The position numbers were made by a program, and so were the translations under genes. Of a DNA stretch of 38,654 bases, positions 20,343 to 26,987 are shown one piece after another; position 1 is the stretch's first letter; each line of letters begins with the position of its first letter. The notes below the pieces were generated by a model. It saw nothing but the letters and a program-made list of their open reading frames with translations, had not been told where the DNA came from and did not search any database. The stretch spans positions 1 to 38,654 of the forward strand of contig JAJPIV010000154.1 in assembly GCA_021324595.1 (NCBI GenBank), in the 5' to 3' direction. This DNA is from Actinomycetota bacterium. GTDB lineage: Bacteria; Actinomycetota; Actinomycetes; Streptosporangiales; Streptosporangiaceae.

Positions 20343-21056
20343 GTGACCCTCGTCCTGGTGGTGCGGCACGGGCTGACCGCGGCGACCGGCACGGCGCTGG
20401 CCGGCCGGACCCCCGGGATCGCCCTGGACGACCGCGGCCGGGCCCAGGCGGCCGCGCTGGCGCAGCGGCTGGCCGGGGTCCGGCTCGACGCGATCGTGTC
20501 GAGCCCGATGGAGCGGTGCGTGCAGACTGCCGAGGCGGTGGCGCGGGCGGGGCAGGGCGCCGCGGTGGTCACCGACGAGCGGCTCACCGAGTGCGGCTAC
20601 GGCGACTGGACCGGCAAGCCCCTGCGCAAGCTGGCCCGCGACCCGCTGTGGCGAACCGTGCAGGCGCACCCCAGCGCGGTGACCTTCCCCGGACCGGGCG
20701 GTGAGGCGATGGCCGACATCCAGCGCCGCGCGGTGGCCGCGATCCGGGACTGGAACGGCCGGCTCGGGTCCGGCGCCGTCTACCTGGTCTGCTCCCACGC
20801 CGACGTGATCAAGGCGATCCTGGCCGACAGCCTCGGGCTCCACCTGGACCTGTACCAGCGGATCGTGATCGACCCGTGCTCGCTCAGCGTGATCCGCTAC
20901 ACGCCGACCCGGCCGTTCGTCGAGCGGCTGAACGACGTCGGCGGCAGCGTCGCGGCGCTCGCCAGGGCGGTACAGTCCAGATCGGAGAAGGCCCCGGCCC
21001 CCGCGTTCGCGCCGCGGCCGGGCGACGCGCCGGTGGGCGGCGGGGCGGGAGGATAG
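20343..21056 (+). CDS. Histidine phosphatase superfamily protein (MSMEG_4193 family)
   Basis: The 237-residue protein is a phosphoglycerate-mutase-like histidine phosphatase. The catalytic RHG is at residues 8-10 (LVVRHGLT), with IVSSPMERCVQTAEA providing the second arginine, LTECGYGDWTG the acidic residue region and CSHADVIKAILAD the second catalytic histidine. It belongs to the actinobacterial MSMEG_4193 family of putative phosphomutases, whose substrate is unknown. The C-terminal 25 residues are Ala/Pro/Gly-rich. DUF3090 follows 4 bp downstream and the SCO1664-like gene after it; this trio is conserved in actinobacteria, which suggests a shared, still undefined pathway. Confidence 0.9.
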   Translation: MTLVLVVRHGLTAATGTALAGRTPGIALDDRGRAQAAALAQRLAGVRLDAIVSSPMERCVQTAEAVARAGQGAAVVTDERLTECGYGDWTGKPLRKLARDPLWRTVQAHPSAVTFPGPGGEAMADIQRRAVAAIRDWNGRLGSGAVYLVCSHADVIKAILADSLGLHLDLYQRIVIDPCSLSVIRYTPTRPFVERLNDVGGSVAALARAVQSRSEKAPAPAFAPRPGDAPVGGGAGG

Positions 21057-21060
21057 GAAC

Positions 21061-21621
21061 ATGGCCGTCTACGCGTACGATCCGCCCGAGCGATTCATCG
21101 CGGGAACGGTCGGCCAGCCCGGCGAGCGCACGTTCTACCTGCAGGCCTCGGGCGGCGGCCGGGTCACCAGCGTGCTCGTCGAGAAGGGGCAGGTCAGCCA
21201 GCTCGCCGAGCGGCTCGATGAGCTGCTCGACGAGGTGATGCGGCGCAGCGGCGGGTCGGCCCCCATCCCGGCGGTCGCGCCGTCCGCGCTCGCCGACGAC
21301 GGCCCGCTCGAGCAGCCGGTGCTGGAGGACTTCCGCGCGGGGGCGATCGCGCTCGCCTGGGATGGCGAAAGCCAGCGCGTGATCATCGAGGCGCAGGAGC
21401 TCAGCGACGAGCCGCTAGAGCCGCTGTCGGAGGACCTTCCCGAGGACGGCCCCGCGGTACTGCGGGTCACGATCAGCGCCGCCGCCGCGCGGGCGTTCGC
21501 CAAGCGGGCGCTCACGGTCGTGCTGGCGGGCCGGCCGCCGTGCCCGCTGTGCGGCCTGCCACTGGACGCGTCCGGGCACGTCTGCCCGCGGCAGAACGGG
21601 CACCGGATTGGGCGCTCCTGA
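21061..21621 (+). CDS. DUF3090 family protein with C-terminal zinc-ribbon-like motif
   Basis: The 186-residue protein opens with YAYDPPERFIAGTVGQPGERTFYLQA, the DUF3090 signature, continues with a helix-rich middle (about 40-60) and an acidic stretch around 125-135, and ends with CPLCGLPLDASGHVCPRQNGH, a probable CxxC...C..H metal site. DUF3090 members are cytoplasmic actinobacterial proteins of unknown function. The gene lies 4 bp after the phosphatase with GGAGGATAGG before its ATG, and the following gene overlaps its last 14 bp, so the three are probably translated as a coupled unit. A metal-dependent role is inferred from the cysteines only. Confidence 0.88.
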   Translation: MAVYAYDPPERFIAGTVGQPGERTFYLQASGGGRVTSVLVEKGQVSQLAERLDELLDEVMRRSGGSAPIPAVAPSALADDGPLEQPVLEDFRAGAIALAWDGESQRVIIEAQELSDEPLEPLSEDLPEDGPAVLRVTISAAAARAFAKRALTVVLAGRPPCPLCGLPLDASGHVCPRQNGHRIGRS

Positions 21622-22429
21622 GCGGCGGCGCCGCGACCTGGCCGACCCGGGCGGGCCGGCCGCCGCCGCGCGGGCGCTCCGGGAGGCGCCGGCCGGGCCG
21701 GCCGGCCCCGGCGAGGCCGAGGACGCCGCCCTAGAGCTGCTGTCGGCGGGACGCCTCACCGTGGCCGGCCGGCTCGCGGAGGCGTCGAACGCCACCCTCT
21801 ACTGCACCGTCACGCACCGCGGCCGGGCCGGCGCGTGCGTGTACAAGCCGGTGGCGGGCGAGCGCCCGTTGTGGGACTTCCCGCACGGCTCGCTGGCCGG
21901 GCGGGAGGTCGCGGCCTACGCGGTCTCGCGCGCGTCCGGGTGGAACATCGTGCCGCCGACGGTGTACCGTGACGGCCCGTTCGGGCCGGGCATGTGCCAG
22001 CTGTGGATCGACGCTGACCCCGCCGTGGACCTGCTCGCGCTCGCCAGGAGCGCCGATCACGCCGGGCTGCGGGCGATGGCGGTCTTCGACGCGGTGATCA
22101 ACAACGCCGACCGCAAGATCGGCCACCTGCTCCCCGTGCCCGGCGGGCACGTGTACGGCTGCGACCACGGGGTGTGCTTCGCCGAGGAGTACAAGCTGCG
22201 CACGGTGCTGTGGCAGTGGCGGGGAGATCCGCTCGCCGAGGCGGACGTCGAGGCGCTGGAGCGGCTGCGCGCCCGGCTCGAGGCCGGCGACCTGGCCGCC
22301 ACCCTGCGGCGCTGGCTGACCGCCGGGGAGGTCGCCGCCACCTCGGCCAGGGTCCGGACGCTGCTGCGCCACCGGGTCCACCCGCAGCCACCGCGAGACT
22401 GGCCCGCGGTCCCCTGGCCGCCGGTGTGA
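21608..22429 (+). CDS. SCO1664 family protein (PI3/PI4-kinase-like fold)
   Basis: The 273-residue protein belongs to the SCO1664 group, whose sequence resembles a reduced phosphatidylinositol 3/4-kinase or HipA-like fold. The candidate P-loop/lysine region is LYCTVTHRGRAGACVYKPVAGERPLWDFP (about 75-100), the catalytic loop is DAVINNADRKIGHLL (about 160-174) and the metal-binding loop is YGCDHGVCFAEEYKLRTVLW (about 183-202). These are the N/D and DHG residues expected of an active kinase-like fold; the substrate is unknown. The start is uncertain: the TTG at 21608 overlaps the DUF3090 stop by 14 bp and no better start precedes the conserved region (LLSAGRLTVAGRL, about 44). Residues 1-40 are low-complexity Arg/Ala/Pro. 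It is the last gene of the operon. Confidence 0.82.
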   Translation: MGAPERRRRDLADPGGPAAAARALREAPAGPAGPGEAEDAALELLSAGRLTVAGRLAEASNATLYCTVTHRGRAGACVYKPVAGERPLWDFPHGSLAGREVAAYAVSRASGWNIVPPTVYRDGPFGPGMCQLWIDADPAVDLLALARSADHAGLRAMAVFDAVINNADRKIGHLLPVPGGHVYGCDHGVCFAEEYKLRTVLWQWRGDPLAEADVEALERLRARLEAGDLAATLRRWLTAGEVAATSARVRTLLRHRVHPQPPRDWPAVPWPPV

Positions 22430-22459
22430 GCGGGCCGCCGGCGTGAGCGGGCCGCCGGC
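22426..22459. repeat. 17-bp tandem duplication at a convergent gene junction
   Basis: gtgagcgggccgccggc occurs twice head to tail (22426-22442, 22443-22459). The first copy contains the TGA stop of the SCO1664-like gene and the second reaches the TAG stop of the PAC2 gene on the other strand. It fills the whole space between the two genes. No terminator hairpin is seen here. Confidence 0.7.
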
Positions 22460-23370
22460 TACCGGCCGCCCTGCTCGCCGCGACGGCGCAGGTAGCGCTC
22501 GAACTCGCGGGCGATCGCGTCCCCGCTCGCCTCGGGCAGGTCGGCGGCGTCCTTGGCCTCCTCAAGCGCCCGGACGTAGTCAGCGACCTCGCTGTCCTGC
22601 TGGGCGAGCTCGTCCACCCCGCGCTCCCACGCCCGTGCCTCGTCCGGCAGGTCACCGAGCGGGAGCGGGGCGTCGAGCAGGTCCTCCACGCCGCGCAGCA
22701 GCGCCAGCGTCGCCTTGGGGCTCGGCGGCTGGGCGACGTAGTGGGGCACCGCCGCCCAGAGCGAGACCGCGGGCAGGCCGGCCCGGGCGCAGGCGTCCTG
22801 CAGCACGCCGACGATGCCGGCCGGCCCCTGGTAGTCCACCTGCCCGGTGCGCAGCGCGCCCGCCAGGGCCTCGTCCGAGGCCGCCACGGTCACCGGGACC
22901 GGCCTGGTGTGCGGCGAGTCGGCGAGCAGCGCGCCGAGCAGGATCACCAGATCGGCGCCCAGCCGCCGGAAGGCGTCGACCAGCTCGGCGGTGAACGCGC
23001 GCCAGCGCATGTTGGGCTCGATCCCGTGGACGAGCACCACATCGCGGCCGAGCCCCGCAGGGCTGGCCACGGCGAGCCTGGTGGTCGGCCAGGTCAGCCG
23101 GCGGGTCCGGCCGCCGGCCACCTCGACGACCGGCCTGGTGACCTGGAAGTCGTAGTAGTCCTCCGGGTCGATCTCGCCGACCGCGGTGGCATCCCAGGAT
23201 GCGCCGAGGTGGGTCACGGCCGCGCTCGCCGCCTCGCCCGCGTCGTTCCAGCCCTCGAACGCCGCGATGACCGCCGGCCTGGCCAGTCGCCGGCCGGAGC
23301 CGTGCCGGCCTCCGGCGCCGTCCTGGCCGCTGCCGTCCTGGCCCGGCGCCGGGAGTCCGTCGAGCTCGAT
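22459..23370 (-). CDS. PAC2 family protein with probable ATC start codon
   Basis: PAC2 proteins resemble proteasome-assembly chaperone 2 and are conserved in actinobacteria near metH and proteasome genes. The conserved body is plain: AVIAAFEGWNDAGEAAS, then GEIDPEDYYDFQVTRP, VLVHGIEPNMRWRAF and GIVGVLQDACARAGLPAVSLWAAVPHY, with a C-terminal helical ATPase-like tail. The first usable GTG (23217) falls after the conserved AAFEGWNDAGE, so it is too late. Upstream, the family opening IELDGLP begins at an ATC (23370) with GGAGGTG exactly 7 nt before it, while an in-frame TGA at 23427 and the 18 codons after it offer no ATG, GTG, TTG or CTG. With the ATC start it has 303 residues. A Gly/Asp/Gln-rich insertion (about 9-28) interrupts the N-terminus. 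A CTG at residue 29 is the alternative. Confidence 0.8.
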   Translation of the reverse strand: MELDGLPAPGQDGSGQDGAGGRHGSGRRLARPAVIAAFEGWNDAGEAASAAVTHLGASWDATAVGEIDPEDYYDFQVTRPVVEVAGGRTRRLTWPTTRLAVASPAGLGRDVVLVHGIEPNMRWRAFTAELVDAFRRLGADLVILLGALLADSPHTRPVPVTVAASDEALAGALRTGQVDYQGPAGIVGVLQDACARAGLPAVSLWAAVPHYVAQPPSPKATLALLRGVEDLLDAPLPLGDLPDEARAWERGVDELAQQDSEVADYVRALEEAKDAADLPEASGDAIAREFERYLRRRGEQGGR

Positions 23371-23377
23371 CGGAAGC

Positions 23378-23384
23378 CACCTCC
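23378..23384 (-). promoter_or_regulatory. Shine-Dalgarno that points to an ATC start (PAC2 gene)
   Basis: GGAGGTG on the minus strand is a near-perfect anti-16S match, 7 nt before the ATC at 23370. No ATG, GTG, TTG or CTG lies in the PAC2 frame between the upstream stop and this point, so the site decides the start. Confidence 0.6.
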
Positions 23385-23440
23385 AGGACTTGGTCCCGCG
23401 CCCGCCGTGGCCCGCCGGGCGACGTCACGCTCGTACCACC

Positions 23441-23470
23441 AGCCTAGTCGCCCTGCGGTGCGCCTAGGAT
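23441..23470. promoter_or_regulatory. Divergent -10 boxes for the PAC2 gene and metH
   Basis: TAGGCT on the minus strand (23446 to 23441) and TAGGAT on the plus strand (23465-23470) lie 18 bp apart between the two genes. The metH box overlaps an ATG at 23469, so the ATG at 23481 is the better metH start. The PAC2 transcript would have a leader of roughly 60 nt. No cobalamin riboswitch fits in the 110-bp gap. Confidence 0.45.
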
Positions 23471-23480
23471 GGGGGTCATC

Positions 23481-26400
23481 ATGTCGCCCGCAGCCGAACA
23501 TGCCGGACAGCCTCCCAGGGGGGCGCTGCTGCGCGCCGCCCTCGCCGAGCGGCTGGTCATCGCCGACGGCGCGATGGGCTCGATGCTGCAGGGCAGCCCG
23601 GTCGCCCCCGGTGACTTCGCCGGGTACGAGGGCTGCAACGAGATCCTCAACGTCACCCGGCCCGATGTCGTCCGCGCGATCCACGACGGGTACCTGGCGG
23701 CCGGCGTGGACTGCGTCACGACCAACACGTTCGGGGCGAACCTCGGCAACCTGGGCGAGTACGGCATCCCCGAGCGCATCTACGAGCTGTCCAGGGCAGG
23801 GGCGGTGCTCGCGCGGCAGGCGGCCGACGCGGCGGCGGCGGCGGACGGGCGGCCCCGGTGGGTCCTCGGCTCGATCGGCCCCGGGACCAAGCTGCCCACG
23901 CTCGGCCATGTCCGGTTCGCGCAGCTCCGCGACGCCTACGAGAGCAACGCCGCCGGGCTGCTCGACGGCGGCGCCGACGCGCTGATCGTGGAGACCTGCC
24001 AGGACCTGCTCCAGGCGAAGGCGGCGATCATCGGCGCGCGGCGGGCCATCGCCGGGCGCCCGGGCGCCGCGTCGACCCTGCTCATCGCCCAGGTGACCAT
24101 CGAGACCACCGGGGCCATGCTGCTCGGCACCGAGATCGGGGCAGCGCTGACCGCCCTCGAGCCGCTGGGCATCGACATGATCGGGCTGAACTGCGCGACC
24201 GGGCCGGCCGAGATGAGCGAGCACCTGCGCTACCTCGCCGCGCACTCGCCGCTGCCGCTGTCCTGCATGCCCAACGCCGGCCTGCCCGAGCTGACCGCGG
24301 ACGGGGCAAGATACCCGGTCACGCCGGGCGAGCTCGCCGCCGCCCACGACATGTTCGTGACCGAGTACGGCCTGGCGATGGTGGGCGGCTGCTGCGGCAC
24401 CACCCCGGAGCACCTCGCGGCCGTCGTCGGCCGGCTTGCCGGGCGGCCCGCGGCGACCCGGGCCGCCCGGCCCGAGCCCGGGGTCTCCTCGCTCTACCAG
24501 CACGTGCCGTTCCGCCAGGACACCGCGTTCCTCGCGATTGGCGAGCGGACCAACGCCAACGGATCGAAGGCGTTCCGCGAGGCGATGCTCGCGGGCCGGT
24601 ACGACGAGTGCGTCGAGATCGCCAGGTCCCAGACCAGGGACGGCGCGCACCTGCTCGACGTGTGCGTCGACTACGTCGGCCGGGACGGCGTGGCTGACAT
24701 GACCGAGATCGTGAGCCGGCTGGCGACCGCCGCGACCCTGCCGCTGGTGCTCGACTCCACCGAGCCGGAGGTGATCAGGGCCGGCCTGGAGCTGACCGGC
24801 GGCCGGTCGGTGGTCAACTCGGTGAACTACGAGGACGGCGACGGGCCGGGCTCGCGGATCGCCCGCGTCATGCCCCTGGTGGCCGAGCACGGCGCGGCCG
24901 TGATCGCGCTCACCATCGACGAGCAGGGCCAGGCCAGGACGGCCGAGCGGAAGGTGGAGGTGGCCGCCCGGCTGATCGGGGACCTGACCGGCCGGTGGGG
25001 GATGCGGGCCAGCGACATCATCGTGGACTGCCTCACCTTCCCGATCGCCACCGGCCAGGAGGAGACCCGGCGCGACGCGGCAGAGACGATCGAGGCCATC
25101 CGCGAGGTCAAGCGGCGCTTCCCCGACGTGCAGACCACGCTCGGGGTGTCGAACGTCTCGTTCGGCCTGGCCCCGGCCGCGCGCGCGGTGCTGAACTCGG
25201 TCTTCCTGCACGAGTGCGTCGCGGCCGGGCTGGACTCGGCCATCGTGCACGCCGCGCGCATCATGCCGATCGCCCGCATACCGGAGCGGCAGCTCCAGGT
25301 CGCCCTCGACCTGATCTATGACCGCAGGGACGGCTCGTACGACCCGCTGGAGGAGATGCTCAGGCTCTTCGAGGGAGTCGACGCGGCGTCGCAGCGCGCC
25401 GACCGGGCCGCCGAGCTGCGTGCCCTGCCGCTCGCCGAGCGCCTCAAGCGCCGGATCATCGACGGCGAGCGGGGCGGGCTCGAGGAAGACCTGGACGAGG
25501 CGCTGCGGGAGCGCCCCGCCCTGGAGATCGTCAACGACGTGCTGCTGGACGCCATGCGGACAGTGGGCGACCTGTTCGGCTCCGGGCAGATGCAGCTGCC
25601 GTTCGTGCTGCAGTCCGCCGAGGTCATGAAGGCGGCCGTGGGCTATCTCGAGCCCCACATGGAGCGCACCGGGGAGGTGGGGAAGGGCAAGATCCTGCTC
25701 GCCACCGTCAAAGGCGACGTGCATGACATCGGCAAGAACCTGGTCGACATCATCCTGTCGAACAATGGCTACGACGTGGTGAATCTCGGGATCAAGCAGC
25801 CGATCTCGGCCATCATCGCGGCGGCGGACGAGCATGGCGTCGACGTGATCGGGATGTCCGGCCTGCTGGTCAAGTCCACCGTGGTGATGCGGGACAACCT
25901 CGCCGAGCTCAACGCGCGCGGCCTTGCCGGGAGGTGGCCGGTGCTGCTCGGCGGCGCCGCGCTGACCAGGTCCTACGTCGAGCAGGACCTGGCGCAGATG
26001 TTCGCCGGGCAGGTCCGCTACGCCAGGGACGCGTTCGAGGGGCTGCGGCTGATGGACGCGTTCATGGCGGTCCGCCGCGGCGTCCCGGGCGCCGAGCTGC
26101 CGGCCCTGCGGCAGCGGCGGGTCCGGGCGGCGGCGCGGCCGGCGGAGGACGAGGACTCCGGCCGGGCCCGCTCCGACGTCTCTGCGCTGGTCCCGGTCCC
26201 CGATCCGCCGTTCCTCGGCACCCGGGTCGCCCGCGGCATCCCGCTCGCCGACTACGCCGCCTACCTCGACGAGCGGGCGCTGTTCCTCGGCCAGTGGGGG
26301 CTCAAGCCCGCCCGGGGGGGCGCCGGCCCCGGCTACGACGAGCTCGCGGCGACGCAGGGCCGCCCCCGGCTGCGCATGTGGCTGGAACGGGTGCAGACCG

Positions 26401-26987
26401 AGGGGCTCGTCCAGGCCGCTGTCGTGCACGGGTACTTCCGGTGCGTCAGCGAGGGCAACGACCTGATCGTCCTCGGCGAGGACGGGGCGGAGCGGGAGCG
26501 GTTCAGCTTCCCGAGGCAGCGCCGCGACCGCAGGCTGTGCCTTGCCGATTTCTTCCGCCCCCGCTCCAGCGGCGAGACCGACGTGCTCGCGCTGCAGCTG
26601 GTGACCATGGGCCCGAGGATCAGCGAGGCCACCGCGGAGCTGTTCGCCAAGCACGCCTACCGCGACTACCTGGAGCTGCACGGCCTGTCGGTGCAGCTGG
26701 CCGAGGCGCTCGCCGAGTTCTGGCACGCCCGGGTCCGCGCCGAGCTCGGGATCAGCGGCGATGACCCGGACACCCTCGACGGCATCCTGCGCGTCGGATA
26801 CCGGGGCTGCCGCTACTCGTTCGGCTACCCGGCCTGCCCGAACCTGGAGGACAGGGCCACGGTGATGCGCCTGCTCGGGGGGGAGCGGATCGGCGTGGAG
26901 CTGTCCGAGGAGTTCCAGCTGGCACCCGAGCAGTCCACCGACGCGCTGATCGCGCACCACCCCGAGGCGAGCTACTTCAGTGTCTGA
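23481..26987 (+). CDS. metH: Cobalamin-dependent methionine synthase
   Basis: MetH transfers the methyl of 5-methyl-tetrahydrofolate to homocysteine through cobalamin. The 1168 residues (from ATG 23481) show all four modules: homocysteine domain with the zinc motif VGGCCGTTPEH near 300; pterin domain with FLAIGERTNANGSKAF near 350; the B12 cap and binding domain with DVHDIGKN near 746 (the histidine is the cobalt ligand) and VIGMSGLLVKSTVVMRDN; and the reactivation domain with RVGYRGCRYSFGYPACPNLEDR near 1104 that binds SAM. It is near normal length (about 1170-1230). An ATG 12 nt upstream overlaps the -10 box and is less likely. A HAD-family gene overlaps its end by 8 bp. Confidence 0.96.
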   Translation: MSPAAEHAGQPPRGALLRAALAERLVIADGAMGSMLQGSPVAPGDFAGYEGCNEILNVTRPDVVRAIHDGYLAAGVDCVTTNTFGANLGNLGEYGIPERIYELSRAGAVLARQAADAAAAADGRPRWVLGSIGPGTKLPTLGHVRFAQLRDAYESNAAGLLDGGADALIVETCQDLLQAKAAIIGARRAIAGRPGAASTLLIAQVTIETTGAMLLGTEIGAALTALEPLGIDMIGLNCATGPAEMSEHLRYLAAHSPLPLSCMPNAGLPELTADGARYPVTPGELAAAHDMFVTEYGLAMVGGCCGTTPEHLAAVVGRLAGRPAATRAARPEPGVSSLYQHVPFRQDTAFLAIGERTNANGSKAFREAMLAGRYDECVEIARSQTRDGAHLLDVCVDYVGRDGVADMTEIVSRLATAATLPLVLDSTEPEVIRAGLELTGGRSVVNSVNYEDGDGPGSRIARVMPLVAEHGAAVIALTIDEQGQARTAERKVEVAARLIGDLTGRWGMRASDIIVDCLTFPIATGQEETRRDAAETIEAIREVKRRFPDVQTTLGVSNVSFGLAPAARAVLNSVFLHECVAAGLDSAIVHAARIMPIARIPERQLQVALDLIYDRRDGSYDPLEEMLRLFEGVDAASQRADRAAELRALPLAERLKRRIIDGERGGLEEDLDEALRERPALEIVNDVLLDAMRTVGDLFGSGQMQLPFVLQSAEVMKAAVGYLEPHMERTGEVGKGKILLATVKGDVHDIGKNLVDIILSNNGYDVVNLGIKQPISAIIAAADEHGVDVIGMSGLLVKSTVVMRDNLAELNARGLAGRWPVLLGGAALTRSYVEQDLAQMFAGQVRYARDAFEGLRLMDAFMAVRRGVPGAELPALRQRRVRAAARPAEDEDSGRARSDVSALVPVPDPPFLGTRVARGIPLADYAAYLDERALFLGQWGLKPARGGAGPGYDELAATQGRPRLRMWLERVQTEGLVQAAVVHGYFRCVSEGNDLIVLGEDGAERERFSFPRQRRDRRLCLADFFRPRSSGETDVLALQLVTMGPRISEATAELFAKHAYRDYLELHGLSVQLAEALAEFWHARVRAELGISGDDPDTLDGILRVGYRGCRYSFGYPACPNLEDRATVMRLLGGERIGVELSEEFQLAPEQSTDALIAHHPEASYFSV

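Follow-up and report, generated by a model that had tools for sequence, protein, structure and literature searches.

Where does translation of a gene begin when its open frame carries recognisable family sequence upstream of any ATG, GTG or TTG? The question is raised by a PAC2 family gene, encoding a proteasome-chaperone-like protein, on a 38,654-nt contig of a Streptosporangiaceae genome (Actinomycetota; GenBank assembly GCA_021324595.1, contig JAJPIV010000154.1), the whole of which was analysed and is here called the window. A first-pass annotation, made from the letters alone, had proposed that this gene starts at ATC (AUC in the transcript) behind a strong Shine-Dalgarno (SD) sequence. 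The features on which the argument turns are given below; ATG, GTG and TTG are termed canonical throughout, and G and L numbers denote genomes and loci, G000 being the genome of the window.

22459..23370, minus strand: PAC2 family protein (PF09754; PDB 3mnf, 5un0), 303 codons plus stop when counted from ATC
23368..23370, minus strand: candidate AUC (ATC) start codon of PAC2, from the ATC/ATA column in 27 of 32 clade species and the constraint pattern
23371..23373, minus strand: CCG, at the presumed ancestral GTG start position (GTG there in 86 of 99 homologues outside the clade)
23378..23384, minus strand: extended Shine-Dalgarno sequence GGAGGTG, 7 nt before ATC
23425..23427, minus strand: in-frame TGA, upstream bound of the open frame
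23215..23217, minus strand: GTG at residue 52, first canonical in-frame codon, the start if only ATG, GTG or TTG is allowed
23441..23446, minus strand: TAGGCT, putative -10-like element (consensus match)
23287..23346, minus strand: in-frame low-complexity insertion of about 60 nt, limits approximate, in the N-terminal part of PAC2

The minus strand bore out the layout that had been described. The TGA is followed by 18 codons without ATG, GTG, TTG or CTG before the ATC, GGAGGTG (23384-23378) is separated from it by exactly 7 nt (23377-23371), residue 29 is CTG, and no canonical codon occurs in frame until the GTG at 23217, 51 codons on. The insertion consists of Gly/Gln/Asp-rich codons and was observed in none of the window's four congeners (G001-G004); the AFEGW motif lies 36 codons after the start in the window and 16 in those four. 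In another genome, G229, AFEGW is 12 codons farther from the start than in most species.

Read from ATC, the frame matches PF09754 with an E-value of 1.9e-66 (224.4 bits, cut-off 25.8), and residues 37-256 cover the whole profile (1-215 of 215). Alignments with the structures 3mnf (E 3.6e-96) and 5un0 (Rv2125; E 1e-88) begin at query residues 31 and 34. Since the three matches open at residues 37, 31 and 34, a start at 23217 would lose part of the conserved core. The earlier claim that a late start deletes AFEGWND was thus correct, and the first 15 residues matched by PF09754 would be cut as well.

A PAC2 protein was detected in 59 of 60 genomes in the relatives search (E up to 0.001) and in 332 of 341 in the family search (E up to 1e-60). 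In each locus the DNA was read upstream of AFEGWND; start columns come from the fetched loci, a part of the 332, so that further ATC species may exist, and draft assemblies may conceal additional exceptions. Eight loci whose motif had no match were left out of the counts (L028, L030, L097, L103, L106, L125, L147, L148); GTG had earlier been read in two of these, L028 and L030. Also left out were L049-L053, which have identical codon strings, together with three more duplicates found by script, and L146, a 100-base placeholder stretch. The PAC2 tree comprises 62 rows, and L049-L128, L134 and undetected loci are absent from it.

The first-pass annotation had suggested aligning homologues over the N-terminus and the start codon. 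Such an alignment revealed ATC (24) or ATA (3) in the start column of at least 27 species from ten genera, all of them inside one clade of 32 PAC2 proteins (SH-aLRT 100). The window's genus contributes five of these species (G000-G004), g25 nine and g89 six; the remainder are G006, G015, G023, G092, G102, G228 and G229. Within the same clade, G021, G033 and G084 have GTG directly before ATC, G018 has GTG in the ATC column at an equal distance from GGAGG, and G017 has, according to the protein alignment, GTG in that column nearer to the SD. The TAGGCT element recurs upstream of the gene in G017 and in 21 of the 27.

Thirteen of the 27, the window included, lack a canonical codon all the way from the in-frame stop to the column; the gap is reduced to a single codon (GCA) in G015 and to six in G002 and G004. 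The other 14 have some canonical codon upstream, the nearest being scattered between 6 and 43 codons away in 13 of them. The exception is G102, whose TTG two codons before ATC is the sole canonical codon within five codons upstream among the 26 further species. G229 has an ATG 11 codons upstream and a weak SD of four matching bases, and the SD of G023 is likewise weak (five bases, 13 nt away). An AUC/AUA start is accordingly predicted less firmly for G102 and G229.

Outside the clade, all 99 distinct homologues read have a canonical codon. In 93 it stands at the start site (86 GTG, 4 TTG, 3 ATG), with ATC as the next codon in 70 of the 93; in the other six it lies 12 to 28 codons before AFEGW. 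Over the span from 13 to 40 codons before AFEGW, a canonical codon is lacking in 19 of the 27 ATC/ATA species vs 1 of the 99, and that one (L094) has GTG at 12. As the start outside the clade is canonical and usually GTG-ATC, the ancestral GTG would have been lost and initiation would have moved to the old second codon. For the same reason, conservation of ATC is weak evidence when taken alone, because homologues outside the clade mostly have ATC as their second codon. GTG was kept or regained in 5 of the 32 clade species. The fewest canonical/non-canonical changes on the PAC2 tree number four, or two if G017 and G018 count as shifted, and a single clade of 29 rows (the 27 plus G017 and G018) was not rejected (p-AU 0.413); this is a quick, single-protein tree in which 17 of 59 inner branches reach 95.

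The onset of coding was located from substitutions in nine close species pairs, which were picked by us and within which the ATC column is unchanged. Codon positions 1, 2 and 3 carry 10, 3 and 27 substitutions over the first 15 codons past ATC (chi-square p 1.1e-5), vs 38, 38 and 35 (p 0.92) at nt -45 to -24. Coding constraint follows the ATC, and there is none upstream of the SD. Furthermore, G006 and its sister group g89 have SD-ATC spacers that are unequal by 2 nt, and therefore that stretch cannot be read through in frame in both. The protein alignment of G000 with G003 does extend upstream of ATC as far as the stop, because the SD region is conserved. Taken together, the upstream stops, codon variation, substitutions and spacer lengths place the predicted start at ATC/ATA.

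As a control, 30 non-overlapping frames of the window that are conserved with G003 were compared with a 60-kb stretch of that genome. In 28 of them at most three conserved residues precede the first canonical codon, these being conserved frames, not curated genes, of which about ten align only well inside the frame and are uninformative. PAC2 and the frame 21500-22426 depart from this. The latter was considered as a further case of an upstream start and taken instead as an overlap effect, because its upstream part overlaps the neighbouring gene 21061-21621 and the alignment there passes through a G003 stop codon. PAC2 is thus the sole control frame judged to have real coding sequence well before its first canonical codon. 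The control says only that, within a 38-kb sample, no obvious general relaxation of start codons appears in the lineage.

Three other accounts of the start were weighed against these data. The first-pass annotation had named a sequencing error as the main rival, that is, a miscalled or misassembled base hiding a canonical start; the window is indeed one contig of a 168-contig draft genome. This account is excluded for practical purposes by 26 further species, sequenced as separate genomes, which carry ATC or ATA in the same column amid differing flanking bases, and the AUC of PAC2 looks like an inherited trait. A start far downstream, with the upstream part left untranslated, could use the GTG that is present at 23217, and we give it hardly any credence either. 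It would forfeit AFEGWND and the beginning of the PF09754 match, and it would leave the third-position bias after ATC unaccounted for. Moreover, the first canonical codon past the column falls at varying places, 5 to 61 codons on, in 26 of the 27 species, while G002 has none within 80 codons.

Initiation at a weak codon close by is a more serious proposal, and we still judge it improbable. Candidates are GTC, the codon used by sigR, just before ATC in five species (G228, G356, G361, G362 and G363), CTG two codons before it in seven of the 27, and the TTG of G102. For the five GTC-ATC species, a GTC start would be compatible with conservation considered alone. In the window, however, only CTT or CCG could serve, and nothing but ATC/ATA is shared across the species: codon -1 takes 11 forms and codon -2 takes 12, one of which, in G015, is a stop. 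In four g89 species, GTC would lie just 2 nt past GGAGGTG, vs 5 nt for ATC. Initiation at AUC, with its column recurring in 26 further species, is the best reading of the comparative evidence, and PAC2 in the lineage of the window very probably initiates with fMet at AUC/AUA.

The surroundings of the start were then compared. At least seven matching SD bases are found in 24 of the 27 ATC/ATA species vs 20 of 93 homologues outside the clade (Fisher p 2.4e-10, a value which overstates the evidence because the species are related). Long SD sequences also occur in some GTG-bearing members of the clade, and the extended SD may have come first, making the loss of GTG tolerable. Matches were counted against what we take to be the complement of the anti-SD. 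The exact 16S tail pattern was matched in one of six genomes, G000 not being that one, probably because drafts often come without rRNA. Four leader folds revealed no unusual structure (z-scores 0.15, -0.83, 0.13 and 0.31), the fourth being that of L014, a relative with a GTG start.

An initiator tRNA arm with a CAU anticodon was found in 24 of the 27 genomes searched, and ARAGORN called tRNA-Met(cat) at three of nine places examined; on these two grounds the initiator tRNA looks unaltered. G000, G361 and G028 each have two arm matches, one called as a tRNA by ARAGORN and one not. An altered initiator was considered and rejected; ARAGORN called neither the GAU-loop matches in G021 and G228 nor a variant in G017 as a tRNA.

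A mechanism can be proposed in which an ancestral GUG-AUC start lost its GUG and the old second codon came to occupy the P site. There, the initiator tRNA-fMet(CAU) would form two Watson-Crick pairs with AUC or AUA and be mismatched at the third base, with assistance from the extended SD GGAGGTG, usually 5-7 nt upstream. The protein would begin with fMet-Glu or fMet-Lys; that of the window is to be written MELDGLP, because the initiator tRNA(CAU) would place fMet at the AUC.

Known systems offer both likenesses and differences. In the accessible part of PMC5472188, infC is said to start at ATT in E. coli and at ATC in Streptomyces. Among 30 genomes searched here, the infC start column is ATC after GGAGG in all 25 with a match (loci L149-L174), an identification which leans on the published Streptomyces start because some infC frames stay open further upstream. 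PAC2 resembles infC in having an AUC start after GGAGG. They differ in that infC is autoregulated by its own product, whereas PAC2 is no translation factor and has AUC in one clade. As a separate observation, G001 carries two different infC copies on opposite strands of one contig, about 0.7 kb apart.

Streptomyces sigR is described in the same part of PMC5472188 as having a GTC start that is repressed by IF3 and preceded by an extended ribosome-binding site, AGGAGGTG. The gene is called misannotated there, its start having been proven by mutation and Western blots; its expression drops when IF3 is increased and is higher in infC fidelity mutants, and the start is GTT in 2 of 34 species. As far as that account goes, sigR and PAC2 are alike in being actinobacterial, in starting at a codon mismatched in its third base and in having an extended SD (AGGAGGTG in sigR). 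They differ in that sigR uses GUC, proven experimentally, whereas AUC/AUA in PAC2 is predicted by comparison. PAC2 shares with both infC and sigR a start other than AUG, GUG or UUG alongside a normal tRNA-fMet(CAU).

The sigR start column was also read in 18 genomes of the family (L187-L204; G000:C158:50932-51498 in the window's genome), as the match to the Streptomyces GGT-CCG-GTC start and from match coordinates. It holds GTA in eight, GTC in six, GTT in two and GTG in two, and it is preceded by a G-rich, SD-like stretch containing an in-frame GTG. This suggests that the mismatch start of sigR is not confined to Streptomyces and that GUA is another of its codons, though sigR might instead start at the GTG inside the SD-like stretch.

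Another parallel is rnhC of Listeria monocytogenes, whose ATC start is, in the available portion of PMC13068326, experimentally confirmed. On that account it is, like PAC2, a bacterial gene other than infC with a fixed AUC start, while being another gene in another phylum. The same portion ranks reporters as ATG > ATA > ATT, and placing AUC at the start of a Bacillus subtilis fusion is reported, in the text at hand of PMC10303841, to have made its expression much lower. According to the accessible part of PMC10158994, IF3 lowers in vitro initiation at AUU read by CAU; an IF3 titration in that paper omits the pairing of AUC with CAU. Rv2125 (5un0) and 3mnf belong to the same protein family as the window's PAC2. 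By contrast with the latter, the distinct homologues read outside the clade have canonical codons in 99 of 99 cases.

What the mismatch start does for the cell is less clear than where it lies. The first-pass annotation had raised regulated low expression, which is a reasonable suggestion by likeness to infC and sigR. In a more specific form, PAC2 initiation would be weak and held down by IF3, keeping the protein at a low level which would rise when IF3 activity falls; by analogy with those genes, we regard this as an even proposition. A single substitution would turn ATC or ATA into ATG, yet none of the 27 species has ATG at the column, and this hints at selection for weak initiation, an argument that is weak because the 27 species are related.

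It is somewhat short of an even chance that the AUC start is real and merely tolerated, near-neutral, with the extended SD sufficing and no regulation by IF3. The presence of the extended SD in GTG-bearing clade members would fit such tolerance, as would the near-universal GTG of PAC2 outside the clade (86 GTG and 3 ATG of 93) and its retention or regain in five clade species. Against it stand the persistence of the mismatch start in ten genera, with ATG so near and never used, and the IF3 repression of the GTC start of Streptomyces sigR, as stated in the part of PMC5472188 cited above. A broader scheme is speculative and, in our estimation, rather unlikely: a mismatch start plus extended SD would be a selected control device in this lineage, shared by infC (AUC), sigR (GUA/GUC/GUU) and PAC2 (AUC/AUA), the mismatch being conserved and not the particular codon. 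Reduced IF3 activity would then raise, in concert, a few genes for stress and protein quality.

Few bacterial genes besides infC are documented with an AUC start in the portions of the literature at hand, Listeria rnhC being one, and PAC2 is a predicted addition to these published cases. An AUC start of PAC2 was not found in the titles and abstract openings of the matches listed for PAC2, Rv2125, infC/IF3 and non-canonical starts, in a search that most subscription journals lie outside. The PAC2 site offers a natural series of GTG, GTC, ATC and ATA across related species, in a gene unrelated to IF3, which could be used to study the loss of a canonical start and the effect of IF3 thereafter. 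For annotation, in the 13 species that lack an upstream canonical codon, software restricted to ATG, GTG and TTG would have to begin the gene late, by 5 to 61 codons and in G002 by more than 79.

As to the neighbourhood, the plus strand from 20343 to 22429 encodes an MSMEG_4193-type phosphomutase, a TIGR03847 protein and a SCO1664-family protein, the last lying tail to tail with PAC2. On the other side, a gene for B12-dependent methionine synthase (23469-26987) is divergent from PAC2.
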